This document shows positions 19,175 to 63,527 of a stretch of DNA of 64,000 bases, piece after piece. How positions within the stretch are numbered: position 1 is the stretch's first letter; every line of letters starts with the position of its first letter. The notes under the pieces were generated by a model. The model worked only from the letters and a program-made list of their open reading frames with translations. It did no database searches and was not told where the DNA came from. The stretch is taken from assembly GCA_963920575.1 (NCBI GenBank), contig OY986966.1, positions 16,859,888 to 16,923,887 of the forward strand. Direction: 5' to 3'. This DNA comes from Narthecium ossifragum. Its lineage: Eukaryota > Streptophyta > Magnoliopsida > Dioscoreales > Nartheciaceae. Made by a program: the position numbers and the translations under genes.

Positions 19175-21367
19175 ACTCTAATTCCTAGTGCCACTAGGAC
19201 TTTGCGCATCTTGACAAAGGCCATGGCAAGGCTTGGCGCGGGCAAAATCAAAGATGACGCGCGAATCCTAGTCGGACTAGGACTCGGCGCGCCATGGTAC
19301 GGCCAGCAAGACGCGTGAGTCCATGGGGAGCAATCCAGCCGTGCAAAAGCTAGTTCCAGTTGGACTGGGATCATGGAAGGACTTGATGCGGCAAAGGCAA
19401 GCTTTGGCGCGGGGAAAGTCCTTATTGCTCGGGAGTTCTAGTCGAACTAGGACACGACTCGCACCGACGGAAGGCAGTTAGCCACGGAGGCCAAACCGTG
19501 CGTGCCATCAAGCTAATTCCACTTGGCCTAGGACTCCCATATGGGATGACACGGCAAATATGGAAGATTGCACGGGGGAAGTTGGTTGTGACTCGTTGAA
19601 ATAGGAAGGAGTCCTATTTCGAGTCGATATGCGATGGATCTTAGCAGTTGCTATCCAAAGTCAAGTTGCACCGCAACTTGGTGTCCTTCTTAGAGGGGAA
19701 AGCTGGAGCCGTCCTCTATATAAGGGGGATCCGGCCATGATCAAGGGGATTTTGGACAGTGGCTTAGGGTTGGGTTCTCTTTGTAAATTGAGCGATTGTA
19801 ACCAAGGGTTTGGGAAAGGGAGTTGAGAGCTTCTTTATAACAATTGCAGTAATAAAGAGAGCAGGCGAATCCTTTGCCTACACCGTGTCTTCTTGTGTGT
19901 TTGCATGTGAAGAAGACGAAGGAGGGCTTGTCAAGAGGAGTCTTGACGCCATCATTGGGAAGAACTCGAAGAAAATTTTCCGCTGCACTTTCCCGGTGAC
20001 ACTCGGCACCCTGCCGGCCCGGGGTGGTGAATAGTAAAACAGGCCAAGAAGCTGCTGCAGTAGTAGCCCCACCAACTGCAGTGAGTCCGCCAAAAGACAG
20101 CATGTTACGGGAAGCAACCCCGACAAACAAGATTAGCAGTACAACATGCTATCTAACATCCCGGGAGTTGTCACTCTCCCGATTCACCACTACCCCTCAT
20201 TATGGGGCTAACATGCTCAATGATATGTACAAGTTTATAAAGCGGTAAAGAAAACCGCATACGCAAAGCCCCGTGGGCAAATCCATTGAAAACGCCTCTC
20301 AGCCACCAAGAGATCGATCTCTCTACCAGAGAAGATCGATCTTCTTGGTTCTTGGAAAGCCTCATCCCAGTCAACCGGAAGAGATCGATCTTCTCCACCA
20401 GAAGGATCGATCCTCTTCATGACTCGAACCCCGCCCATGCAAACCAAGCAAGGATCGATCTTCTCCAACAGAAGGATCGATCCCGCTCGGGCTGGGTATG
20501 ACATCCCACAAATGATCGATCTTTCCTCAAGAAAGATCGATCCGGATGGGTTCATCGACGGACTGCCAGAGAGAAATACCGCCGAAAAACTCCACCAAAT
20601 CCTACAAAACTCTGGAATCTAATAATACTAAGGACCACGAGTCCAAAACCGAAGATTTCATTGAAAACAAACATGTATATAATCAAATCTAAGCAATACA
20701 AACCTCAATCAAACTCAAACCTCACAAATCCAAAAAAACAAGTAGGTAGGATCCTTACCTAGACTAGAGTAGCTTCAATCCCAGCTGCTAAGCCTTGGAT
20801 CATCCTCAAACTCCTTCAATTCCAGCCGGATCTCAGCTCAAGAACGCGGATTTGAAAAAGAATCAAAGAAGAGGGTTTCGTTCGTTCTATAGATGGATGA
20901 ACCGACCTATGAGAGATCGATCTCTTCTCAAAAAAAGATCGATCTTTCATGATGAATTGACTTAACTTTCTGGCGCTAAGAGATCAATCTCCTTATCAAG
21001 AGAAGATCGATCCTGTTTTCCCAGAAAGCTAGACTTGGGCTAAAACACATGTGAGGACCTGCACCTCTATTCATGGGCCGACCGGCTAGGCCGGGCCCGT
21101 GGTTCGCTGTGGACCGCAAGGGCAATTTGGTAAATTGCACCTTGTTGGTTTGTTTGATTATAACGGTTAATGTTTGATTATAACGGTTAGGTGGACCCGG
21201 GATCGAAAGATCAGGGCTTGAGCTAGCGTTCTAACCCAAGTCTAGCTTTTTGCACCCATATGATCGATCTTCCCTTGCTAGGAGGATCGATCATTTGGTG
21301 AATGATCGATCATCCCTTGCTGGAAGGATCGATCATTTGATGTCAGGGAGTTGCTATCGTCATGGAG

Positions 21368-21397
21368 GATCGATCATTCCTCCTTGAATGATCGATC
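21368..21397. repeat. Perfect GATCGATC hairpin module upstream of LTR A2 TATA box
   Basis: Two 12-base arms, GATCGATCATTC and GAATGATCGATC, are separated by six bases. Comparable perfect modules with other inner bases lie at 21767-21795 (ATTC/GAAT, 5-base loop), 21827-21856 (ATCT/AGAT, 6-base loop) and 20514-20542 (TTTC/GAAA, 5-base loop). Confidence 0.9.
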
Positions 21398-21420
21398 ATC
21401 CTTAAGTCGGTTCGTTTGTC

Positions 21421-21427
21421 TATATAA
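21421..21427 (+). promoter_or_regulatory. TATA box of solo LTR A2
   Basis: TATATAA sits 23 bases after the perfect hairpin at 21368-21397, so the palindromes lie where U3 promoter elements are expected. The homologous TATAAA of solo LTR A4 is at 46645-46650, again just downstream of two GATCGATC pairs. Confidence 0.6.
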
Positions 21428-23598
21428 CGAACACGACTTTCTTCTTTCAATCCTTTTGAAATCCGCGCTCTTGAGCTCAAAGCTGTTGGATTTGGAAGTG
21501 ATTGAAGGCGATCGTTGGCTTGGTAGCTGGGATTGAAGTTGCTCTAGTCTAGGTAGGGATCCTACCTACTTGCTTTTTCGGTTTGTGAGTTTTGAGTTGT
21601 TTGTGATTTGTTTTGCTTAGATCTTGCTGCATGTTTGATAGGTTCGAGCATGCTTACCGGTTTTGGACTCATGGTCCTTCGTAATACCAGATCCCAAGGT
21701 TTTGTCGGATTTTGTGGAGTTTTTCGGTGGTATTTCTCGCCGTCCGGTGGCCGGAGAACCCATCAGGATCGATCATTCTGGAGGAATGATCGATCTTCCT
21801 GGGTTGGTCATGCCTAGCCCGTGAAGGATCGATCATCTGGTTGGAGATGATCGATCATGTTCCTTGGTTGGCATGGGTGAGTCCTTGGTCACGAAGGTTA
21901 AATGGTTTTTGCGATCGATCATCCTAGAGGGAGGATCGATCCTTGTAGCTTGACAGTGGCTGAATCTTCCCATTTACGAGGGTGATCGATCCTTGGGTGA
22001 TTGATCCTTCCTCTGGAAAGGATCGATCCCTCTTGCGGCAGGGAAGGGTTTTCAATGGTTTTTGCCCGCGGGGCTTCATTATGCGCCTTTCTTACCGTCT
22101 TATAAACCAGTACATATCCTTAAAATGTTAGCCCTATAATGAAGGGTAATGGTGAACCAGGAGAGTGATGACTCCTGGGATGTTTAAAATAAGTGGCCGG
22201 GCAGCCCTACAGCTTTCCTTAGCCTTGCATGCCGGCGTGCACCGAGAGCTTATATGTGTGGTTTGTTAGATGTTGTTTGCGGGGCTGCTTCCCGATGCAG
22301 GTTGCTGGTGAACTGGCTGGCAATTGGTTGTGGTACAACTGCAGCAGTTCTTGACCTTAAATACCTGTTCACCACCCCGAGCCGGCAGGGTGCCGAGCCC
22401 AGACCTTGCTTTGTTATCATCACATATGTTGCATGCTTATCTATCTTATATGTGCATGTTCATTGCATGCATTTTTTCTGGTTGCGCATTTGTTGCATAA
22501 GGTTAGGGCGTGGGTGATTTGTGAGTCACCGTCCCGAGGCTTGGAAGCTTGGATTTAGCCCTAGGACCGAGGTCGGGTAGTTTGGACCAGGTTTGAATGG
22601 TGGTGTTCAGTCGATTTCAATGATAGGCGTAGATGACTCGAACACCTGTTGCTTGATAATTGTAGAGGTTGTGTCGGCCTCGAGCCGGGTTCTGAGGTGT
22701 AGCCGGTGTCCAGTTGTGATGGCTCTTGAGTAGAGGGTGTGCCTACTAAGCGGTGCCATTTTCCGTCAGCAGTGTCGGTTACCTACTTGTGAGTCAGCAG
22801 TGTTGTTTTCCTGCTTACTGAGCGTGACCCATCATGTGACCAGTTCTTCTGGAAGATCATGATCATAGACTTCAGGGATACACGGTGGGGTTATGGAACC
22901 CCTGTGTACACCCAAGCCTTGCTCGGGGGCGACACTGTTGTGTTTCCCTCTTCCTTTTGTGTGTCGTAGTGTGGTTTCCCTGCTGAGCTTAGTTGCTCAC
23001 TCCTACCCGGGTTACGTTTTGCAGGTGCAGGCATTAGCTCCTCTTCGGTGACCCCTACCGGGCAGTTGGTCGGCGGTGCGGTGGCGCCATGCGGAGTCTG
23101 AGGTGTGGTGATTTGTCTTACCAGAACTTTTGTTAATTAGCCTCCTACGGGAGTATATTTATATTGTACTTGATCTTCCCCTCTTCGAGGTTTTGTATAT
23201 TAAATTTGGGTTTGTAATCTTCAGCTTGAGGTTTCTGTGAATTTGTAGAATTGTTAATTGAGGGTGGTTTGATGAATTGCTTAGGAAGACCATAGGTTAG
23301 AGGAAACCCTCACCAAATTTTTCGCGATTTCTTACGCTACGGTTCGCGTCGCCCGGCCCGGTTGGGCTTTCGCAGGTCGGAGCACAACAACACAAGCCCA
23401 AGCTAGGATCCTTCGATCCCGAGTCCACCTAACCGCTCAAATCAAACATTTACACAAACATGGTCAGTGTGCACACCCGCGAGTGTGAAACAAACCAACA
23501 ATGTGCAATTTACCAAATTACACTTGTGGTCCACAACAAGCCACGAGCCCGACCCAGACGATCGGCCCAAGAGTAGAGGGACAGGTCCTCACACGGGC

Positions 23599-24824: not shown

Positions 24825-25905
24825 TGAAGGTCTAAGAGGGAGGTGAATTGGACTCTTTTCGAAAAACTAGATTAACGGAAAAATTAGGTAGGAGAGGACT
24901 AACACCTTAAATGCTTGTACATGAAATGAAACTAAAGTAAATAAGCATGCAAGAATTATATGAAAGAGGGATAGAGAGATAGCACCGATTTTTATAGTGG
25001 TTCGACCCAACTCTTGGTCTACGTCCATTTTTCTTAAGTCTCTCCTTGAGGTTCCACTACTTGCAAATCTTTTACAAGCATTTCCTCCAAGCTTCCTGGT
25101 GCTTGGTGACCTTACAATCACAGCCACTTGCTGTTGGATAACTCTCAAAGTATTTCTTCACACTTGAAGAAGGTTTACAAAGGTTGTAGCTCAAAAGAGA
25201 ATAAGTAGAAACTCTTGCTAAGACTTGCTCAGATGATCTCAATAATATCAATAAAGGTTATGGCAAGTTTACAACACAGAACTACTTATATCTAGCCTTC
25301 AACCAGCTCAAAAATGACCTCCAACATCTATCTGCAACTCTCCAATGGCTAGTTTTTTTACTCTGCGCGTTGCTGGTGGTCGATCCATGCATCGTCCGTC
25401 AATTGTCACGGTCGACCATGACATCAACCGTAGTGTACAAAAACCCAGCCTTTGCGTCCCACGGTCGATCCACCCATCGACCGTCGTATCGTCCGTCAGG
25501 CTCTGTTGTGAAAAATTCTTCCCAGGGTCGATGCTCCGATCGATCGTCGCTTCTTTACTTTTCACCAACATCCGCCACGGTCGACCGTCGCATCGTACCT
25601 CACGGTCGACCGGTTCATCGACCATCGCATCGACCGCCAGGCTCTGTCAAGAAAATGGCTTCGCAGGGTCGATGCAACGATCGACCGCGAGCCAACATTT
25701 CATTTTGTCAAGTATGGTGCATCATCCATGGTCGATCCATGGATCGACCGTCGCATCCCCACGGTCGATCCATGCATCGACCGTCAGTACACAATCACAT
25801 TAAATATTGGATTTTAGACTTTGAATTAAAGGGATAATAAATATTAAACATATATTTTATCATATAATGTATGTTGGCATCATCAAAACAAGGTTAGGAT
25901 CAACA
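24825..25905 (-). repeat. 3' LTR of the copia element
   Basis: On the minus strand it starts TGTTGATCC at 25905 next to the polypurine tract and ends ACCTTCA at 24825. Positions 25378-25795 hold clustered GGTCGACC, CGATCGACC and ATCGACCGT motifs upstream of the presumed promoter. Confidence 0.93.
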
Positions 25906-26464: not shown

Positions 26465-27697
26465 TCAATCAACTGAGGGTGTGGAAGGTGGAAATTCAGT
26501 CTTGATGTAGGTAAAAATGTCTTCAAGTTGCCTTGACATCTTTGCTTGATCCGCCGTGATTTGTGCTTGGGAAGACTTGATGTCACCTTGATTCACTTCT
26601 ATTCTTTCCAGTCTTGCTTCAAGATCATCAAGTCTTTGAGATGTGATGCGACGAGCTCGGGTGTGGGAAGATTCACCTTGATGTCCTTGAAGTCTAGGCT
26701 CTCCTCCTAAGTTTTCCTCATCATGCTCTTCTTGATGCTCGCCTTCCTTATCACTACTAACATCAGGAACACTATAGCCTAAGGCTCGCTTGGCAGAATT
26801 CATCCTTTTGAAAGTGGATTTACTAAAGGGTTGAGAGAGGGGTTTTCTTTCATCAACAACTAGGTGAAGGGTAAGGGCTTGGAAAATATTGGTTAGAAGT
26901 CCTCCAAAAGGTAGTGATTTCCTAGCCGTAAGGTTAACCATTTCCTTGATAATGATATAACCTAGGTTTAGAGGCTTCTTCCTAACCATGCAAGAAAGGA
27001 CATAGGCATGAAGGGGCTTCAAATGATCATGGTGTCCAAGCTTAGGAAAGAGATTTGTTCCTAAAAAGTGGGCAAGCTCCCTATAGTTTTGGTGTAGGCT
27101 ATTTAATTCTATAGGATTTTTGTCAACTAGATCAGATCTAAGAATTGCCCTTCTCCCTTGTTTATCCTTATCATGTCTTTTGAGATCATGATATGAAGTA
27201 AAGTATGCACACTCTCCTTGATTTGGTGCACTTAGCATCTCATTTAGCCATTCTACGGTAATCTTGATGTCATTTCCATAGATATAGCTACTAATGGCCA
27301 CATATCCTTCATCATCAATATCTTCAGTCATATTGCAAGAGAAATATCGAACCATTTCGGGATGCATAAATTGAGGTAAATCTAAGAATTTCTTCCAACC
27401 CATATCAGTGAAAAATCTTTCAACTACATATTCCTTTCCTATGGGCAATTGAAGAGCTCTACCCGAAACCACAAATTTGTCCTTAAATTCTAGCCAAGAG
27501 TCATACCTATCTTTGTCTAGGAAGAGATAGTCATCGAAGGAAGGAGTAGAAGAAGGCATGGATGAGGACTGTCCAAGTGAACCTTTGGCTTTCTTCAACA
27601 ACCTTCTCTCCTTCACTGCCTGCCTCTTCTTCTCTCCTTGCGTCGGAGCAGTCGGCGCCAGAGGTGGAGGAGGTCCGACGTTCTTGGTGCGAGGCAT
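26465..27697 (-). CDS. Extra ORF downstream of copia pol, putative plant transposon-protein domain
   Basis: An uninterrupted 410-codon frame begins at an ATG (27697) with a basic N-terminus (KKRQAVKERRLLKKAK). The central part, about residues 55-270, resembles the putative plant transposon-protein family often found in retrotransposon-derived ORFs (VVERFFTDMGWKKFL, EMVRYFSCNM, YGNDIKITVEWLNEML, LARKSLPFGGLL-like). The C-terminus (about 355-400) is a heptad-type coiled coil (LDDLEARLERIEVN). I see no signal peptide or membrane segment, so an envelope role is not supported. It occupies the position of the env-like ORF of SIRE elements. The function is unknown; that it stays open while pol is broken is notable. 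Confidence 0.75.
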   Translation of the reverse strand: MPRTKNVGPPPPLAPTAPTQGEKKRQAVKERRLLKKAKGSLGQSSSMPSSTPSFDDYLFLDKDRYDSWLEFKDKFVVSGRALQLPIGKEYVVERFFTDMGWKKFLDLPQFMHPEMVRYFSCNMTEDIDDEGYVAISSYIYGNDIKITVEWLNEMLSAPNQGECAYFTSYHDLKRHDKDKQGRRAILRSDLVDKNPIELNSLHQNYRELAHFLGTNLFPKLGHHDHLKPLHAYVLSCMVRKKPLNLGYIIIKEMVNLTARKSLPFGGLLTNIFQALTLHLVVDERKPLSQPFSKSTFKRMNSAKRALGYSVPDVSSDKEGEHQEEHDEENLGGEPRLQGHQGESSHTRARRITSQRLDDLEARLERIEVNQGDIKSSQAQITADQAKMSRQLEDIFTYIKTEFPPSTPSVD

Positions 27698-28310
27698 GGC
27701 GTGAGGCTTAGTTAGGGTTTTGAGAGGAGAGGAGAGGAGAAGAGAGCGGTCGAACCAAGGAGATGGCGGACATTTGAGAGCTAGGGCACGGTCGAATCAG
27801 GGGAAATAATGAAGCTTTGATCGGGGGTTATTAGGGGAGATTGAGTGAAAATGACTGAAATGCCCTCACTTATTGTCACACGATCCGTGGCGGTCGACCG
27901 TAAGAAGTTGGTGGTCGACCGTCGTGAGCAATATGTGTAGTATTAAAGTCGCACGGTCGATCCGAGAAAGTTGGCGGTCGACCGTGGCACACGATAGGTC
28001 TAAAAATGAAGGCCCACGATCGATCCAAAGAGTTGGCGGTAGACCGTCCAGTGCGAATGTACGCACGGTAGACCGTCAGGACGTCTGGATCGACTGTCAG
28101 TTCCAGAAAGTGAATTTTGAAATTCAATTTAAAATCATTTTAAAATCAAAACATCACAAAACTTTACATACACGTGTAACTAAATATTATGAGCTAAAAA
28201 CAACTCTTAAATCATGAAAATTACTCAATTTACCAAAATTTAGCATTCAAGTAGGATATTTTATAAAAAAGCAGATAAAGACGTGACCATACCTTTTCTT
28301 TTTAGCTCCT
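27698..28310 (-). promoter_or_regulatory. Spacer between pol and extra ORF with GGTCGACC-type motif cluster
   Basis: The spacer contains about ten copies of GGTCGACCGT, CGGTCGATCC and related short motifs at 27885-28100, the same set as in this element's LTRs. The part 27698-27870 is purine/pyrimidine-biased leader-like sequence directly before the extra ORF. A role as a second promoter or leader for the ORF is inference. Confidence 0.45.
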
Positions 28311-33644: not shown

Positions 33645-33901
33645 TTAATAACATTTTACTCCCCTATAGTTTGAAAATATGTCAATTTACCCCCTATATT
33701 TTAAAACGTGACAAGACGCACCCTTAATTTATCAATGTGATCGTATTACTCTCAAATGTGACAAAACGCACCCCATATATAGGGGGTCAATTGGGTGTAA
33801 TATGACCACATTGATAAATTAAGGGTGTGTTTTGTCACGTTTTAAAATATAGGGGGTAAATTGACATATTTTCAAACTATAGGGGAGTAAGATGTTATTA
33901 A
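33645..33901. mobile_element. Foldback MITE inside copia gag
   Basis: The 257-base element is an almost complete inverted repeat: TTAATAACAT and TTACTCCCCTATAG at the left correspond to CTATAGGGGAGTAA and ATGTTATTAA at the right, with arms above 100 bases. The copia gag sequence resumes on either side. No duplication outside the palindrome could be fixed. There is no coding capacity. Confidence 0.85.
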
Positions 33902-34783: not shown

Positions 34784-35887
34784 TGAAGGTCCAAGAGGGG
34801 GGTGAATTGGACTCTTTTCGAAAAACTAGATTAATGGAAAAATCAGGTAGGAGAGGACTAACACCTTAAATGCTTGTACATGAAATGAAACTAAAGTAAA
34901 TAAGCATGCAAGAATTATATGAAAGAGGAATAGAGAGATAGCACCGATTTTTATAGTGGTTCGACCCAACTCTTGATCTATGTCCACTTCTCTCAAATCT
35001 CTCCTTGAGGTTCCACTACTTGCAAATCTGTTACAAGCTTTTCCTCCAAGCTTCCTGGTACTGGTGACCTTACAATCACATCCACTTGTTGTTGGATAAC
35101 TCTCAAAGTATTTCTTCACACTTGAAGAAGGTTTACAAAGGTTGTAGCTCAAAAGAGAATAAGTAGAAACTCTTGCTAAGACTTGCTCAGATGATCTCAA
35201 TAATATCAATAAAGGTTATGGCAAGTTTACAACACAGAACTACTTATATCTAGCCTTCAACAAACTCAAAAATGACCTCCAACGGCTCTCTGCAACTCTC
35301 CAATGGCTACTTTTTTTACTCTGCGCGTTGCTGGCGGTCGATCCATGCATTGTCCCTCAAGTGCGTAGTGTACAAAAACTCAATTTTTGTGTCCCACGGT
35401 CGATCCACCCATCGACCGTCGTATCGTCCATCAGGCTCTGTTGTGAAAAATGCTTCCCAGGGTCGATGCTCCGATCGACCGTTGCTTCTTTACTTTTCAC
35501 CAACATCCGCCACGGTCGACCGTCGCATCGTCCGTCGGATCGTCCGTGAGCCTACAACATTAAAAACACAAAGTCCAAACCTCGTGGTCGACCGGTCCAT
35601 CAACCGTCGCATCGATCGCCAGGCTCTGTCAAGAAAATGGCTTCGCAGGGTCGATGCAACGATCGACCATGAGCCAACATTTCGCTTTGTCAAGTATGGT
35701 GCAACGTCCACGGTCGATCCATGGATCGACCGTCGCATCCCTACGGTTGATCCATGCATCGACCGTCAGTACATAAACACATTAAATATTGGATTTTAGA
35801 CTTTGAATTAAAGGGATAATAAATATTAAACATATATTTTATCATATAATGTATGTTGGCATCATCAAAATAAGGTTAGGATCAACA
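34784..35887 (-). repeat. 5' LTR of the copia element
   Basis: It starts TGTTGATCCTAACC at 35887 and ends ACCTTCA at 34784. A TATA-like ATATAAG lies near 35245. The GGTCGACC-type motif cluster is at 35336-35770, upstream of it. It differs from the 3' LTR by small insertions and deletions and many substitutions, so this insertion is older than the Del-like one. Confidence 0.93.
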
Positions 35888-38667: not shown

Positions 38668-38946
38668 ATGGCGGCCCCCGTCCCACTCCCCTCTCCCCTC
38701 CTCCCTCCTCTCCATCTCCTATGACCTCCTCTACTTCTCCCACCCGGACCCCCACCACCACACACCTCTACTCTCCATCTCCTTTGGCCTCCTCTGCTTC
38801 TCCCACCCATACCCCCACTACCACACACCTCTACTCCTCTCCAATCCCCTCACCCTCTCCTCCCGCATCATCCACATCCCCATCCCTCTCTCTTGTTTCC
38901 ATCCCCTCCACGTCCTCCTCTTCCACCCATGGACACAGACTCCCTC
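38668..38946 (+). pseudogene. Captured gene fragment, left part (kelch/F-box-like candidate)
   Basis: The stretch starts near ATGGCGGCCCCCG at 38668 and is Pro/Ser/Thr-rich in all frames. A 63-base tandem duplication (38709-38771 and 38772-38834) disturbs the frame. The last bases, ATGGACACAGACTCC from 38929, continue in frame across the A3 insertion into the recognisable right part. I cannot identify this half on its own. Confidence 0.4.
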
Positions 38947-46311: not shown

Positions 46312-48635
46312 TGTGAGGACCCGTCCCTCTACTCCTGTGGCTCGTCGTGGACCGCAAGGGAAATTTGGTAAATTGCACCTTGTCGGCTTGTTTCACACCC
46401 GCGTGTGTACACACTGACCGTGTTTGTGATAATGTTTGGTTAGAACGGTTAGTGGGACCCGGGATCGAAAGATCCGGACTTAGACTTGAGTTCTTGCCTA
46501 AGTTTAGCTTTCAGCACAAGAAGGATCGATCCTCTCTAGCTAAGAGATCGATCTTCTTCGTGCCAGAAAGTCAAGTGCGATCGTCATGAAGGATCGATCC
46601 TTACCTAGGGAAGGATCGATCATTCATAAGTTGGTTCGTTTGCCTATAAAGCCGACGAGATCTTCTTTCTTGAATCCCTTTTGAAATCCGGCGATTTGAG
46701 CTCAGATCTCGCGATTTTTGAAGGCATCTGAGGACGATCCAAGGCCTAGCTGCTTGGATCTAAGCTGCTCTTGCTCCGGTAGGGATTCTTACCTACTTTT
46801 ATTTCCGGGTTTTTGGAGTTTCCGGTTTGATCGTGTTTTTTTACTTAGATCTCTTGCTATACATGTTTATTTCTCATGTTTTAACCGGTTTTGGACTCGT
46901 GGGATCTTGATCTATCAGATCCCAGAGTTTCATGATGTTTGGATGTCTCTTCCGGCGGTTTTTCTCGCCGGAAGGACGCCGAAGAACCCATCGGGATCGA
47001 TCCTTTTTGAGGGAGGATCGATCTCTCTGGGTTGGTCATGCTACGCCCGATGAAGGATCGATCTCCTGCTTGGAGAAGATCGATCCCGGTTCTTGGGTAG
47101 CATGGTTACCCTTCGTCGCGAAGAAGATCGATCTTCCTGGGAGGAAGGATCGATCTTTCTTGGTGCGACATGAAGGGTACCCTCTGTCTCGAGAAAGATC
47201 GATCTTTCTGGGAGGAAGGATCGATCTTCTTTGTCTCGACAGTGAGGGAAGTTCACTGTTACTTAAGAGATCAATCCTTCCTTCGGAAAGGATCGATCCC
47301 TTAGTAGCAAAGAGGGTTTTTCATGGCTTTTGCCCGCGGGGCTTGGTATGTCGGTTTTCTTTACCGCTTTATACTTTGTATATATGACGGTGCATGTTAG
47401 CCCTATAATAGGGCAATGGTGAACCGGGGGAGTGATGACTCCCGGGATGTTTAGAATAAACGGGCGAGTAGCCCTACAGCTTTCCTTAGCCTTGCATGCC
47501 GGCGTGCGCCGAGGGCTTTATCTGCTATATCTGTGAGCTGTTGTTTGCGGGGTTGCTTTCCGGTGCAGGTGTTGTAGTGGACTGCTGGCAGTTGGTGATG
47601 GTACCACTGCAGCAACTCCCTAGACTTTATTTACCTGCTCATCACCCCGGGCCGGCATGGTGCCGTGCCCAGACCTTGTTTGATATATCATCACATACTG
47701 TTGCATGTCTATCTTGTATTTATCCTGTGCATGTTCATACATGCATTGTGTTGTGCACTAGTTGCATCTGTGTAGGGCGTTGCCGATCCGGGGTTTTCGG
47801 GTAGCCCGGATCTAGCTCTAGGACCGTTGCGGGTAGCTTGGTCCAGGACTCGATTTGTAGTATTCAGTCGTTTTCGATGATAGGGTTAGTCTGACCTGAA
47901 TACATGTTATTTGATGTTTAGAGGTCGTGTCTGCCTTGAGCCAGATGTTGTGGGTGCAACCGGTGTCAGTTCTTGTCTTTGGGGGGCCTTCGGAAGGGTC
48001 CCGCCCAGGCAGTGTCTGTTCCTGACCGTAGTGGCTACCAGTGTGGGCCCAGTTCGTTAGGGTGACCACAGCTGGAACCCTGCGACACTAGGTGTACTCA
48101 GGATGGGCCCAGTTCTTGAGGGTGACCATGGTTGGGTATACCTAGGGACACCGGCAAAGGGTTATGGGACCCTTGTTGCACACCCAAGTCTTGCTCGAGG
48201 GCAACACAGCTGTGTTCCCTCCCTTGTGAGTGTCGTAGTGTAGTGTCCCTGCTGAGCTTAGTGCTCACTCCTACCCGGGCTGCATTTTGCAGGTGCTGGC
48301 GCTTGCTCTTCTTCGGTCGCCCCTACCGGGCCGATGTTTGGTGACATGGCGGCGTCTGGCGGTTCTTGAGAGGTGGCGATCTTTCAGTTTTACACCTTTT
48401 GTTTTAGATAGTCTCCTACGGGAGCGATAAATGTATAATTTTCCTGTTTGAGGTTTTGTATATTATATCAGTTTCAGTTTTTGAGATTTGTAATTTGTGT
48501 AAATACAGGATGATTATGATTTGTTAGGGTAACCACTACGATTAGAGGGAAACCTCGTCAAAATTTTTCGCAGTAGGTTAGGTTCCGCTTCGCGTCGTCC
48601 GGCCCGGTTAGGCCTACACGGGTCGGGGCGCGACA
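46312..48635 (+). mobile_element. Solo LTR A4, Del-like family
   Basis: TGTGAGGACCCGTCC to GGGGCGCGACA, flanked by TTACG (46307-46311, 48636-48640), 2324 bases. GATCGATC pairs start at 46524/46546 and 46592/46614, both 22 bases apart, upstream of TATAAA (46645-46650). Four to five more pairs lie at 46990-47300 after the promoter. Confidence 0.95.
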
Positions 48636-48666
48636 TTACGTCCACAGCCTACCCCAGGGCACGCGG

Positions 48667-50927
48667 TGTGAGGACCCGTACCTCAAACCCGGTCAGACCA
48701 CGTTAGGTCGAGGGTCTGGTTTTGTGGTTTGGTTCGATTGGCCTTGGGATGCGATCGGTTGATTTCATCGATGTTTGTGACCCAATGGCATTTTGGTAAA
48801 TTTGCTCCCTGGTGGTCGATTTCACACCCGCGTTGCACCCACTGCCTTTGATTGATGTATGTGTTTGATTAGAACCTTAAGGGCACTTCCGATCGGAAGA
48901 TCGGAGCTCGATCGGGAGAGATCGAATCGGATGGCTGTGATCGATTCCAGCTTTCTATTTAAGCTCTTCTTTTCTCTCTCTTCTCTTCCCTGCTCTTTTT
49001 CTTTCCCCTCCTGCCATTCTCTCTCTCTCTCTCTCTCTCACCTACCAGCTGAGCTAGGACTTGGAGGCGCGATCTTCGAGGAGCGGATCTTGGCGATCGA
49101 GCTTGGGGAATACGTGGAGGAGCTGCCCTACTTGATCAAGTATGTCTTTCTACCCTGATCGTATGGTTGGGTTCTCCTAGGATAGGTTCATTGTGTTTTT
49201 GATGTAGGAATACATGGTAGAATATTGTGTAGCTTAATACATGGGTGTTATAGCTTGCTTAGAGTATCTCTATCATTTGGTTTTCGTATTTTATCGGACG
49301 ATTCTTGTATTATCGTTGGTTTGTCGGTTTTTGGCCGTTTAGACGTAGATTTGAGTTTTAGCCGACCAAATCTCGTTTTCTTCGAACCAATAGCTTCCCC
49401 ATCATCTATCACGCGTGCATGCAAAGTTCCATCGATTTCCGATAAGCTTTCATAGATCAAATCCAAGAAATTGGATTTATGGTACTATTCTTAGGAACTG
49501 TGCCCCAAGCCCAACGGTCGATCGTTGGATCGATCGTCAGGTGTTGACACGTTCATTTTTGGTCTCATGGTCGACCGTCAGATCGACCAACGAATCGACC
49601 GTGGTCTCACGGTCGACCGTCGGATCGACCGTGAGGCTCTGTCTCCTTCTTGGCTTCCCAGGGTCGATGTCTCGATCGACCGTGGCCCGTGTGCTTTTCC
49701 CTCTTTTTGGTCTCATGGTCGACCGTCGCATCGACTGTGGCTCACGGTAGACCGTCGGATCGATCGTCGCATCAACCGTGAGTCCCTGAATAGTGTTTTC
49801 TGGCTTCCTTTGATTGGTCTTTCGTTCATGATAGATACTCAATCATGTTTGGAAGAATGCACGTTGTTATCACGGGGTTTTTAATGGATTTTGATTGAGA
49901 TTGAGAATTGAATCGTGCGTTTACCCTTTTTGACGAATTTATGTGTTGACTTGCATTTAAATACTTAGTTGGATGGTAATTTAAATGCTTATTGTTTGCC
50001 TAGCCATTAGCTAGCTATGAGTGCTAGATTACGTGGTATTGTGGAGGGCTATTGTATAACTGTTGAACTCATAATTATTGTTGTGGCATATAGAGACATC
50101 TAGGGTAGATGTTTGCATAGGTTCATGCACTGTATGCATTAGAGGCATATCAGGTTAGGCGGGGCGATGGGTTGATCGCCGATTCGAGGCTCTCGGGTTG
50201 CTCGGATCTAGCTCTAGGACCGTGGCTGGGTAGCAAGGACTAGGACGTGATTGTTATGCCAAATCTTTGTATTCTTGAGGATGGGTGTAGTTGGCTATGA
50301 TTATATTGCTTTGAGGTTTAAATATCGTGTTGTCTCCCCAATGCCAAGTGCTAGGGATGGATGTCGATGCGTTCTCGACGTGGGTCTTCAAAGCATGGGA
50401 ATCCTGCTTGGGTAAGGATGATCGTGCATGTTACTGTTCCATGACCTTCTAGTAACATGTTCAAGAGAGAGGTTTCATGGCAGGAGCTCTTGGGACATCG
50501 GTAGGGGTTGTAGGACCCCGTGGTATTCCTTAGACTTAGGCGGAGAGACATCACAGTTGTTGTTTTCCTCCCTTCAGTGTGCTGTAGAGTAGAACCCAAC
50601 TGAGCTTATCGCCCACTCCTACTCAGGCTGCGTTTGCAGGTGCAGGCATCAGTTCTTTTTTAGTAGAGCCGGCTGGATCAGCTTTTGGCGGTGCGATGAC
50701 TTCCGGAGGCGTTTGAGGTCTCAGAGGGACAGATGTATATTTTGGCAGCTTTTGTTTAAAGTTACCTTTCGAGGATGATGTATTTAACGTTTAATATATG
50801 AAATCATGTTCCCTCTTTTGATTGAGTTTTAATTCCGCTTTGTGTATTGTCACGCCAGATCGGATGTAAATAGTATAGGAACCCTCACGGCGTGGCCCGG
50901 GTGGGTTTTCTGGGTCGGGGTGTGACA
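48667..50927 (+). mobile_element. Solo LTR F1, gypsy (Del-like) family with GGTCGACC motifs
   Basis: TGTGAGGACCCGTACC to GGGGTGTGACA, flanked by CGCGG (48662-48666, 50928-50932), 2261 bases. A TATTTAA-type TATA box lies at about 48956 with a CT repeat after it (49018-49039). The cluster of GGTCGACCGT, ATCGACCGT and CGATCGACC motifs is at 49515-49800, downstream of the promoter. The termini are like family A, but the body differs. Confidence 0.95.
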
Positions 50928-58843: not shown

Positions 58844-61800
58844 TATGAGGACCTGTCCCTCTACTCCTGGGTTGACCGCTTGGGTCTGGCCCGTGGCTCG
58901 TTGTGGACCGCAAGGGCAATATGGTAAATTACGCTTTGTCGGTTTGTTTCACACCCACATGGTGCACACACAGCCCCTTTTGTTTGATTTATATGTTTGC
59001 TAAAACCCTAGACGGGCATGGGATCGAAAGATCCAAGCTCGGGCGCGTAGAAGTCTGTTTTTAGGACAGCTGGCGGCCCATGTGCGATCGGTTGCTCCAA
59101 GGAGCCACCGATTGGACCTGTGTCGGTTGTCAACACGGCCGACGTATCCGGATAAGGACGAGAACCGGCTTAACCCGGCCCAGTCCGACCGATCGGTCTT
59201 GGACGCGAACCGACTTAACCCGGCCCAGTCCGACCGATCGGTCCTGGGACCGATCGATCGGACTCGAGCCTATAAGTAGCCATAGACCTCCTCTGTTTTT
59301 CCGGTTTGTTTCTCTTCTCCTTCTTCCCTTCCGTTCTCCCTCCTCCGGCTATCTTTTTGAGTGATTGAGGGCTCGTTTGACTCGTGGTAGCGTGAGGAAG
59401 ATCTGTGGCTTGTTTTGAAGCCGGTTTGGTGCTCGAATAGTGAGGATTCAGCCGAGGTTTGCTTAGCTCGGTAGGTTTCTTCCTACTTGGGTTTAATAGG
59501 GGTTTTCTCTTAATCTAGCTGGTGGATCTGGGTCTTCTTGGTGTTGTTGTGTGCATCTTGGTTAGCTTAATTTCTGTTTTGAGTTTCATATGATTTGATT
59601 GAGATTTTAGTAGGATTTTAGCATGCCTAAACTCGGATTTTCTGGTTTCTCTATTCTTGAAGAACAGCTGGTTTACGGTGTGTTTTCCGGTTTGTACATG
59701 CATGATCTTGATTTGTGATGAACATGAGCGTTGGAGATCTTTGGATCTACTCTCAGTTGCAACTCGTTTCATAAGTTTCTGATTTTCCTATGAATTGTTA
59801 TGATTTTCCTATGGATGGGCTGTGTTGCAGCAAAAGGTAAGTAGTGAAGTTAACGGTTTTGATTAGCGTTTTTCCGGTAATCGAGCCGTCGGATGTTTCC
59901 CGGTTTTGGATATGTTGATCCCAATATGTTTTCCTGTGTTTTTCTATGTCGGATCTCGAATCCGACGTCGTTTGGACGTCGGATCGACGAGGTCGCTTAG
60001 CCTCTAATTAGAGGATCTTGATCATTAATGAATATTATTTATGTTCATCTGAGTTTTCGGGGTTACTTCCCATTGCAGGGGTTCGTGGTTGATGGTGGTG
60101 GTATCGTCGTAATGCCGGGACCCACTGCGGATTGGCTGGCAGCGGTCGGTGGTATCGCTGCAGCAATCCAGTTGGACTTGTTTGTTATTTTATCATAATG
60201 TTGCATGCTTACTTCTTACCTGCGCATGATCATAGTATGCATTTTTTTATTGTGCATTAGATGCATAAGGATAGGGCGTGGGCGATGGATTGATCGCCGA
60301 TCTGAGGCTTTCGGGTAGCTCGGATTTAGCTCTAGGACCCAGGCGAGTAGTTTGGTCCATGTTGGATGGTAGTATTCAGTCGATATCGATAATAGGCTTA
60401 GATGACTAGAATACATGTTGATCGATGATTTTAGAGGTCGTGTCGACCTCGAGCTAGGTGCTGAGGGTGCAGCCAGTGTCGTCGTTTCATCCTTGAGCAG
60501 AGGGTGTGCCTGCCCGGTAGAGACTTGTCCTGCCTAGGAGTGTCTTCATCCTGCTGTACTAGGTGTTTCCGGGATGGGTCCATTTCATTAGGGTGACCAT
60601 GGTTGGATATCTAGAGACACTGGTGGGATTATGGGACCCCGTAGCACACCTAGGCCTAGCTTGGGGGTGACACTGTTGTGTTCTCTCCTTTCTGTGTGCC
60701 ATAGTGTAGAACCCAACCGAGCTTAGTGCTCACTCCTACCCGGGCTGCATTTTGCAGGTGCATGCGTTAGCTCTTCTTCAGTGGCCCCTACCGGGTAGGT
60801 GTTTAGTGGCGCAGTGGCGTCTGGCGGTGTTTGAGGAGCGGTGATCGTGTGAGGGCCCGTCCCTTCGACCTGGCTCGACCGCGTGGGTCGAGAGCCAGTT
60901 TCCTGTTGGTTTGGTTCCGCGTCGAGTACGATCGGGCGATCGTATGGCGGTTTGGACTCCGGGGGCATTTTGGTAAATATGCCCTCTGGTGGTCGGTTTC
61001 ACACCTGCGTTGCACCCACGGCCTTGGATTGATGTATGTGTTTGATTAGAATCTCTAATGTGCGTCCGATCGAAGGATCGGAGCTTGATCGGGAAGGATC
61101 GAATCGGACGGCTGAGATCGATCCAGATCTCTATATAAGCCCCGTCCCTTTCTCTCTCTTTCCTTCTCTTCTCCTGTCGTTTTCTCTCCTTCTCTCTCTC
61201 TCCTTCGGCTGAGCTAGGGCTTGGAGATGCGGCTTTCCGAGCGCGGATCTTGGCGGCTTGACTGGTTGGACGCGTGGAGGAGCTGCCCTACTTGCTCAAG
61301 TAGGTGTTTCTACCTCGATCTTAGGATCGGGTTCTCCTAGGATAGGTTTAATGCCTTTTCGCTGTAGGAGTACTTGTTAGAATGCTATGTAGCTCATTGT
61401 GCATGTAATGTGAATGGTTTGAAGTTTTTCTATCTCGCGATTTCCGTATTCCAACGGCTGGTTTCCATATTATCGCCGTTTTATCGGTTTTCGCCCGTTT
61501 TGACCTAGATAGGAGATTTAACCATCAAAAACGTGATTTCTTTATACCATTGGTTTCCCCATCGTTAATTACACTTGCTTGCAAAATTTCATCAACTTCC
61601 AACTTGATTTGATCCTTGATTTCCAAGGAAATGGATTTTCGGCACTGTTCTGATGAACTGTGCCTGAGGCTCGACGGTCGATCGGTGCATCGACTGTCAA
61701 GTATTGATTTGCACTTTCTGGGCCTGACGGTCGACCGTCGAATCGACCGTCGCATCGTCCGTCAAGCTCTGTTGGGATTTTGGACTCCCACGGTCGATGG

Positions 61801-63527
61801 ATCGATCGACCGCGGGTTCTCTCCCTTTTTCATCCCGTCTCACGGTCGACCGTCGCATCGTCCGTGAGGCCCTGCCCCTTTTGGGGCTTCCCAGGGTCGA
61901 TGGGTGGATCGACCGTCGCCCTTGGGGTTTTTCTCGTTTTGGTCCCACGATCGACCGCCGGATCGACCGTGACATCGACCGTGGTCTCACGGTCGACCGT
62001 CGCATCGACCGTGGGCCCTTGAGCAGTGTTTTCTGGTTTTTCTTGGATGGCTTTCACTTGGGTTTGATAGCTAAATATGTTGAGAGGTTGGTATGAGGTT
62101 TTCATGAAGTTTTCAAGGGATTTCCATTGAGATTAAGGATTGAATCGCATGTTGATTTCCTTTGAGTGAATTGATGATGTGGCTTGCTTTTAAATACATG
62201 TGTGGTTGGTATTAAATTGCTTAATTATTTGCTTAGCCATTAGCTAGCTATGAGTGCTAGCTAATGTGGAATTGTGGAACCTTAGCCTCTTGCCGGCGAG
62301 TGCCGAGGGCTATTGTATAACTGTGAACCTGTAATTGATGTTGTGGCATATAGAGACATCTAGGGTAAATGTTTGCATAGGTTCACGCATTGTGTGCATT
62401 AGAGGCATATGAGGTTAGGCGGGCGATGGTTTGGGTCGCCGATCCGAGGCTCTCGGGTAGCTCGGATCTAGCCTTAGGACCGTGGCTGGGTAGTCAGGAG
62501 TAGGGTGTGATCTCGTATCATCAAATCTCTTGTTGTTGAGGATTTTGCGGTAGCTGGCTTTGATCAGTGTTTGAGGTTTAGAGGTCGTGTTTGTCTCCCA
62601 AGGCCAAGGGCTAAAGATGGTTGTCGGTGCCCCTGACATGGTCCCCAGGCAGTGGCTTCTTGCTGGGTAAGGGTGATCCTACTGGTTCTGGTTCTCTGAT
62701 TCCTCCCAGCGTGTTTGGTTGATGTATCCCAGCGTGGTCGGTTGAGAAGAGTAGGATCCTTGGGGTAGTCGGCAGGGGTCGTGGAACCCCGTGGCATTCC
62801 TTAGACTTGAGCGGGGAGACAACATCATTGTTGTTTTCCTTCCTTCTGTGTGCCGTAGAGTAGAACCCTACTGAGCTTATCGCTCACTCCTACCCAGGCT
62901 GCGTTTGCAGGTGCAGGCGCCAGTTCTTCGTCTGTGGAGCCGGCGGGATCGGCCTTTGGCGGCGCGAGCACATCCAGAGGCGCTTGAGGTTTTGCTGGAG
63001 GATAAAACTGTTGTACCTTTTTGATAATATATATGTTATAAACATTTCGAGGACTTTTGGGACTATGTATTATATCTATCCTTAGAAGATTGTTGTATCA
63101 AATATTGAATAGTACAACTGATGTTATATAAATCGAATATCTGTTTACCTCTGGATTATAATTTGTTTAAATTTATCCGTCTTTCCGCATTTGTATCGCG
63201 CCAATTGAAGATGAATAGAGATAGGAACCCTCATGCCCCATCCTGGATGGGTTTTCTGGGTCGGGGTGTGACAGATCGTCTGTTTAACTTTTTTGTTAGA
63301 TAACCTCCTACGGGAGTGTGATGTCTATAAATGTACCCTTTGAGATTTTGAAATCTTTTATATTATATCTTTTGAGGTTGTTGATTATTGTTAATTACGG
63401 GTACTTGTGAAATGTTTAGGGAGAGCAATAAGCTAGAGGAAACCCTCGCCAAAATTATTCCGCATTTAATTAGGTTCCGGTTCACGTCGCCTGGCCCGGT
63501 TGGGCTTTCGGGGGTCGGGGCGCGACA
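58844..63527 (+). mobile_element. Solo LTR A5, Del-like family, opened by solo LTR F2
   Basis: It begins TATGAGGACC (first G of TG mutated to A) at 58844 and ends GGGGCGCGACA at 63527, with CTCCC on both sides (58839-58843, 63528-63532). Without F2 it is about 2.25 kb. It has a hairpin at 59085-59114 and a 45-base tandem duplication (59162-59206, 59207-59251) containing GACCGATCGGTC. A TATAAG lies near 59271. Confidence 0.94.
60848..63273 (+). mobile_element. Solo LTR F2, gypsy (Del-like) family with GGTCGACC motifs
   Basis: TGTGAGGGCCCGTCC to GGGGTGTGACA, flanked by GATCG (60843-60847, 63274-63278), 2426 bases. TATATAA is at 61132-61138. The GGTCGACCGT/ATCGACCGT cluster is at 61670-62010. 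It is clearly related to F1 over its whole length and lies inside A5 in the same orientation. Confidence 0.95.

Follow-up and report, generated by a model that had tools for sequence, protein, structure and literature searches.

The 64,000-bp stretch of Narthecium ossifragum DNA analyzed here (hereafter, the window), at C4:16859888 to 16923887, consists of plant LTR retrotransposons nested in one another and has a GC content of 44.5%. Gag relatives occur in many angiosperms at 52 to 59% identity (best ten by E-value), as do pol relatives at up to 68% (among the 120 matches listed). Two solo LTRs of one family, denoted F, lie on its + strand: F1 (positions 48667 to 50927, 2,261 bp), which has the ends TGTGAGG...TGTGACA and the 5-bp TSD CGCGG, and F2 (60848 to 63273, 2,426 bp), which has the TSD GATCG and is nested inside a solo LTR of another family, G (TSD CTCCC). 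F1 and F2 are 72% identical over the aligned columns, and in a self-comparison of the window, positions 48666 to 50719 match positions 60847 to 62990 at 71%. The segments at 49515 to 49800 and 61670 to 62010, which a preliminary description had taken for the LTRs themselves, are in fact inner parts of these solo LTRs. The − strand carries a copia element, with its 3′ LTR at 24825 to 25905 (TSD TAAGT; PPT AGGGGGAG, then AT/TG) and its 5′ LTR at 34784 to 35887 (PBS TATCAGAGC next in the sense direction). Each of these four LTRs contains a cluster of palindromic repeated motifs (RM), located at 49515 to 49778 in F1 and 61675 to 62011 in F2 (both on the + strand), and at 25377 to 25783 in the 3′ LTR and 35335 to 35765 in the 5′ LTR of the copia element (both on the − strand). 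Direct reading of the window confirmed the palindromic motifs at all positions quoted in the preliminary description, which had reported a common cluster in F1, F2, and both copia LTRs.

The four clusters, 1,529 bp altogether, account for 60 of the 92 GGTCGA/TCGACC half-sites in the window (18, 14, 12, and 16). With up to three mismatches allowed, the dyad CGGTCGAT-N6-ATCGACCG has 34 matches in the whole window against 0.14 expected, of which 32 are inside the clusters, eight in each, with overlaps among them. The phrase AGGCTCTGT-N12-TTCCCAGG, again with up to three mismatches, has seven matches in the window (0.15 expected), each inside a cluster and each on the + strand: one in F1, on the sense strand (unit at 49634 to 49669, +), two in F2 (61764 and 61867), two on the antisense strand of the copia 3′ LTR (25498 and 25639), and two in the 5′ LTR (35433 and 35621). 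Thus, the connecting phrase previously noticed at three places is real and recurs at four more, three in the copia LTRs and one in F2, and its gap, given as 16 to 20 bases, is fixed at 16. The seven phrase units align gap-free after GGCTCTGT, with 16 bases to CAGGG, both F2 units having variant letters, and under a relaxed pattern that allowed 6 to 22 bases, the linker length was constant in all 47 matches. The shared unit spans ~86 bp and consists of palindromic dyads, written GGTCGAT-N6-ATCGACC, together with the GGCTCTGT-N16-CAGGGTCGATG linker. The CpG observed/expected ratio is 1.41 to 1.50 in the clusters, compared with 0.29 to 0.34 in the rest of the copia LTRs and 0.84 to 0.85 in the rest of the F LTRs.

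Palindromes by themselves raise alignment scores, and CG-rich palindromes could, in principle, align through composition. In a shuffle test in which the palindrome words were fixed in place and the other bases alone were shuffled, the scores averaged 41 to 58, compared with 56 to 79 for the observed alignments; the observed F-versus-copia score was reached by 1, 2, 0, and 0 of 1,000 shuffles for the four LTR pairs, and by 0, 1, 0, and 0 of 500 shuffles in an earlier run. In the 379-Mb genome (150 contigs), the core pattern CCAGGGTCGATG-N2-6-GATCGACC has 2,210 exact sites and its reversed control has none. These results, along with the phrase search, refute chance or low complexity, to which we assign a probability close to nil. 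When the clusters were masked, no match between the F and copia LTRs was better than E 0.15, which agrees with the claim of the preliminary description that the LTRs share nothing beyond the cluster and refutes a full-length relationship between them in the window. Ordinary homology could also arise if one LTR were nested in the other, and this is contradicted by the colinearity of F LTRs through the cluster at 12 loci and by the separate TSDs of F1 and F2, so that ordinary homology in either form appears highly improbable. We also considered whether F LTRs had exchanged segments with the cluster as the breakpoint, and rejected this reading: across the 12 loci, the similarity continues through the cluster and breaks elsewhere.

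The assignment of family F comes from a locus on contig C1 (L036), where an ORF with the Integrase_H2C2 and SH3_Tf2-1 domains comes to an end ~36 bp upstream of a co-oriented F LTR; the rve match in this ORF is below Pfam's cut-off. The DNA at this ORF and the pol of the window's G element share 75% identity; the order in the latter is protease-RT-RNase H-integrase (PR-RT-RH-INT), and the integrase is thus last in the pol of F and adjoins the 3′ LTR. Because the integrase ORF ends directly upstream of the F LTR on the same strand, we take F to be a Ty3/gypsy family with its sense direction on the + strand of the window, as judged from the integrase side alone. The G-type gypsy LTR sequence in the window (46524 to 47291 and 20312 to 22021) has palindrome arrays of its own, built on a different core, GATCGATC, with 13 and 25 sites, respectively, mostly paired 21 to 23 bp apart; perfect 8-bp palindromes number 29 against ~7 expected at 46312 to 48635 and 44 against ~12 expected at 20100 to 23545.

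The copia element displays a set of features described for Sireviruses. Its sense strand at the 3′ LTR reads AGGGGGAGATTGTTGATCC, and the PBS follows the CA end of the LTR and a 5-base spacer (CCTTCA ATCGG TATCAGAGC), the spacer being ATCGG here and ATTGG in the available part of Bousios et al. 2010 (PMC2829016). One RM cluster precedes a TATA-like box within the LTR, and another lies upstream of an env-like ORF (26465 to 27796), so named by position, the Pfam match being Transposase_32. The element is large, ~11 kb, and encodes a copia gag and an RVT_2 reverse transcriptase (PF07727, PF14223, and PF13976). By the PPT, PBS, and RM-cluster hallmarks given in the accessible sections of PMC2829016, the element is, on sequence grounds, a Sirevirus.

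The second Sirevirus RM cluster, on the env side (27735 to 28110, −), contains palindromes without the shared linker. In comparisons of this cluster with the 3′ LTR cluster, 359 and 439 of 1,000 shuffles reached the observed score on the two strands, and among six linker tests of the env-side cluster, one gave a low value, that against F1 (7 of 1,000 shuffles). Because palindromes are present here and the linker is absent, palindromes do not force the linker, and the candidate explanation that the linker is a general partner of palindromes was rejected, given that the env-side and LTR clusters of one and the same Sirevirus do not share it. The env-side cluster has a different repeated linker, around CCAACTT.

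To place the genome-wide sites in their sequence context, we classified 98 of 100 listed sites (of the 2,210 total), all of them from the 0.08 to 16.4 Mb interval of contig C1. F LTRs contain 63 of them, Sirevirus LTRs 34, and the remaining one, L071, belongs to a third family, T. The 98 sites are not independent, as LTR pairs are among them and L105/L107 and L106/L108 look like segmental duplicates. Across 40 loci, with the best six matches per locus considered, F matches occurred at only two Sirevirus LTR loci (L042 and L066), and at both an F copy or fragment adjoins the Sirevirus LTR. L071 was compared with the window and with the 39 remaining loci; at a hit length of at least 60 bp, its matches were confined to its cluster.

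L071 is part of a classic copia element: this LTR lies ~85 bp downstream of a 730-aa piece of pol that contains RVT_2 and SH3_retrovirus; the one element that was characterized has an RVT_2 pol, neither env nor a long linker, and an LTR directly after pol, as in classic Ty1/copia elements. We take family T to be Tork/TNT1-like. A search with the L071 LTR yielded 40 matches, L071 included, among 197 candidates, and the unit was found in all eight family T LTRs in which the cluster region was read, two of the eight being the LTR pair of the L071 element; the L121 copy is truncated ahead of the unit. Since the L071 family carries the unit within unrelated flanks, the unit sits in three lineages. 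The sharing between gypsy and copia proposed in the preliminary description thus stands for both superfamilies; the third lineage had been missed there, and the palindromes themselves are an already known Sirevirus feature. Besides the unit, the Tork-like LTRs L115 to L122 have a palindrome array with many 21-bp steps and linkers of its own.

In principle, each of the three lineages might have picked up the sequence on its own from some other source, for instance a host promoter, satellite DNA, or a different mobile element. The classification covers 98 of the 2,210 sites, which leaves some room for such a source; yet, none of these 98 sites lies outside the three LTR families, and we regard separate capture as quite improbable. 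Pattern searches of viral contigs detected single sites in four GC-rich contigs and one place each in 22 contigs; another such search of viral contigs gave no match, encoded relatives were not found in viral contigs, and GTDB contigs had no pattern matches.

All copies read in a given lineage carry the phrase in one orientation, which is reversed in Sirevirus relative to F and T, a difference that had escaped the preliminary description: the phrase is on the sense strand in 63 of 63 F sites and in all eight Tork-like LTRs, and on the antisense strand in 34 of 34 Sirevirus sites. The first tally, of 47 sites at 40 loci, comprised 35 F sites in sense and one in the opposite orientation (L054), 10 Sirevirus sites in the opposite orientation, and the then unassigned L071. 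The L054 site has a neighboring F copy in inverted orientation, and under the nearest-hit rule applied over 80 loci it counts as sense.

Phylogenetic analysis of the units adds a further line of evidence. In an unrooted tree of 169 distinct units (91 from F, 70 from Sirevirus, and eight from T) over 86 columns, each lineage falls on one side of a branch, with support of 100/99 for F, 99/93 for T, and 82/74 for Sirevirus, the last value being moderate and obtained over just 86 columns. This tree omits identical units as well as five that were long or broken (from L100, L042, L081, L069, and L050), the L071 unit was taken from L115, which is the same LTR, and units cut short of 86 bases were omitted from all trees. 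The clean grouping by lineage appeared after the five long or broken units had been removed. An initial unrooted tree of 90 units recovered F (97/93), with the lone T unit placed inside the Sirevirus units; when the long units were included (179 units, unrooted), the tree requires three label changes, the least possible number being two, and a single clade was not rejected for either F (p-AU 0.50) or Sirevirus (p-AU 0.56). The mean identity of the units over the 86 columns is 69% between F and Sirevirus (best, 86%) and 73% between Sirevirus and T. One group per lineage in the tree would fit a single old acquisition in each.

Taken together, we consider it likely that a palindrome-dense LTR cassette was laterally transferred between gypsy family F, the Sirevirus, and the Tork-like family T. 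The transfer is well supported by the combination of a shared, fixed-length, non-palindromic linker, unrelated flanks, and one group of units per lineage. Under this scenario, each lineage would have acquired the cassette once, long ago. Template switching between retrotransposon RNAs is a known route of sequence exchange among LTR retrotransposons. However, the orientation would be preserved if reverse transcriptase jumped from one sense RNA to another, whereas the cassette is inverted between F or T and Sirevirus; an orientation that is constant within lineages and inverted between them argues against simple template switching of this kind. Given that the unit is in sense in F and T and in antisense in Sirevirus, the exchange might have occurred on DNA or through antisense RNA; alternatively, the inverted orientation could stem from palindrome-mediated inversion after the transfer.

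The preliminary description left two options, movement of a cassette or selection by a host factor, and the linker, the flanks, and the grouping of the units speak for the former, whereas host selection alone accounts poorly for the fixed linker. A convergent origin, in which a host factor that binds the dyads and the linker at their fixed spacing selected the cassette independently in each LTR lineage, nonetheless has some points in its favor: the same CGG-CCG-type palindromes recur in Sireviruses of distantly related plants whose LTRs otherwise differ widely, according to the available part of PMC2829016, and the G-type gypsy LTRs in the window carry arrays with a core different from that of the cassette. 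Such convergence is difficult to reconcile with a linker that is non-palindromic and constant in length, with similarity extending over 86 columns, and with the palindromes of the env-side Sirevirus cluster that do without the shared linker, and we deem it unlikely. Strong purifying selection on the cluster was also considered and was not seen, either within F or between LTR pairs. The clusters of F1 and F2 are 75% identical versus 72% for the flanks, and in three LTR pairs, the substitutions in the cluster are similar to or above those in the rest of the LTR. Gap columns number 70 in the cluster versus three in the rest for the LTR pair 24825 to 25905/34784 to 35887, 44 versus four for L035/L036, and 30 versus one for L057/L058.

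The arrangement of the dyads is compatible with a role at the DNA level. Neighboring dyads are spaced near 32, 42, 53, 63, and 73 bp, that is, about 3, 4, 5, 6, and 7 helical turns, a correspondence that was recognized post hoc among related copies. At a period of 10.5 bp, R is 0.81 for 186 F distances and 0.74 for 89 Sirevirus distances, and the best periods tried were 11.0 for F (R 0.84) and 10.25 for Sirevirus (R 0.75); many boxes of the T LTRs are at 21-bp steps. Relative to a TATA-like box, the array is upstream in Sirevirus (GATATAAG in the 3′ LTR, at sense position ~613) and in T (all three LTRs read far enough, L115 to L117, with L115 being the L071 LTR), and ~550 bp downstream in F, as in F1. 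The spacing, the position relative to TATA, and the occurrence in either orientation would suit an enhancer- or silencer-like array acting as DNA better than an RNA element. RNA structure was given no weight as a separate line of evidence, since the strong folding of three clusters (z −6.4 to −7.1) is what we expect of any palindrome array.

As double-stranded DNA, the transferred cassette could, although we are less sure of this step, represent an array of putative sites for a host dimeric DNA-binding factor, or else it might be a hotspot for host small RNAs; either a host DNA-binding factor or the silencing machinery may be behind its persistence. A broader proposition, which we offer tentatively and hold to be possible but on balance doubtful, is that a self-standing, helically phased LTR module with a constrained two-box linker has spread via DNA among at least three unrelated lineages, putting all of them under a single host factor, either DNA-binding or silencing, such that the unit of selection and of lateral transfer would be the cassette rather than the element.

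The palindromes of the Sirevirus have clear precedents. The consensus CGGTCGACCG is listed as a repeated motif of a Vitis Sirevirus in PMC2829016 (Table 3), and in a literature text search, CGGTCGACCG together with the word retrotransposon returned this article only. The boxes described in its available sections and those in the window have in common the CGG-CCG core, the placement of clusters before TATA in the LTR and again before env, and the CpG islands, and CGGTCGACCG is contained in the clusters of the window. These Sirevirus hallmarks and the CGGTCGACCG consensus make the copia half of the present observation known in kind. In the same sections, Bousios et al. 2010 treat RMs as specific to Sireviruses and absent from classic elements, and leave the function of the boxes open; a shared linker or a fixed ~86-bp unit is not reported in those parts of PMC2829016. 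Here, by contrast, the boxes and the fixed linker are also present in LTRs of a gypsy family (F) and a classic copia family (T), and RMs are thus not confined to Sireviruses in this genome. Maize Sirevirus LTR palindromes are reported to be small-RNA hotspots (Bousios et al. 2016, as cited in the available part of PMC5311732); as in that palindrome-rich, variable LTR regulatory region, gaps concentrate in the cluster of the present elements, which differ in that they include gypsy. A search of literature titles and abstract openings did not find the motif or the linker outside Sireviruses. The new part is the occurrence of the cassette, linker included, in gypsy family F and, as a third lineage, in the classic copia family T. 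If one composite cassette does occupy gypsy, Sirevirus, and classic copia LTRs of this genome, a common element can be tested in three unrelated sequence backgrounds, and a single probe could be used to seek the binding factor as well as any influence on transcription or silencing. Regulatory sequence of LTRs would then also be able to cross superfamily borders, which bears on the common control of TE families and on the sequence-based classification of LTR families.

Other repeats were observed in the window as well. An inverted repeat internal to the Sirevirus (33645 to 33758 and 33788 to 33901) has arms of 114 nt that are 93% complementary and separated by a 29-nt loop, and a CT-rich 63-bp tandem repeat of ~2.3 copies is located at 38708 to 38851.
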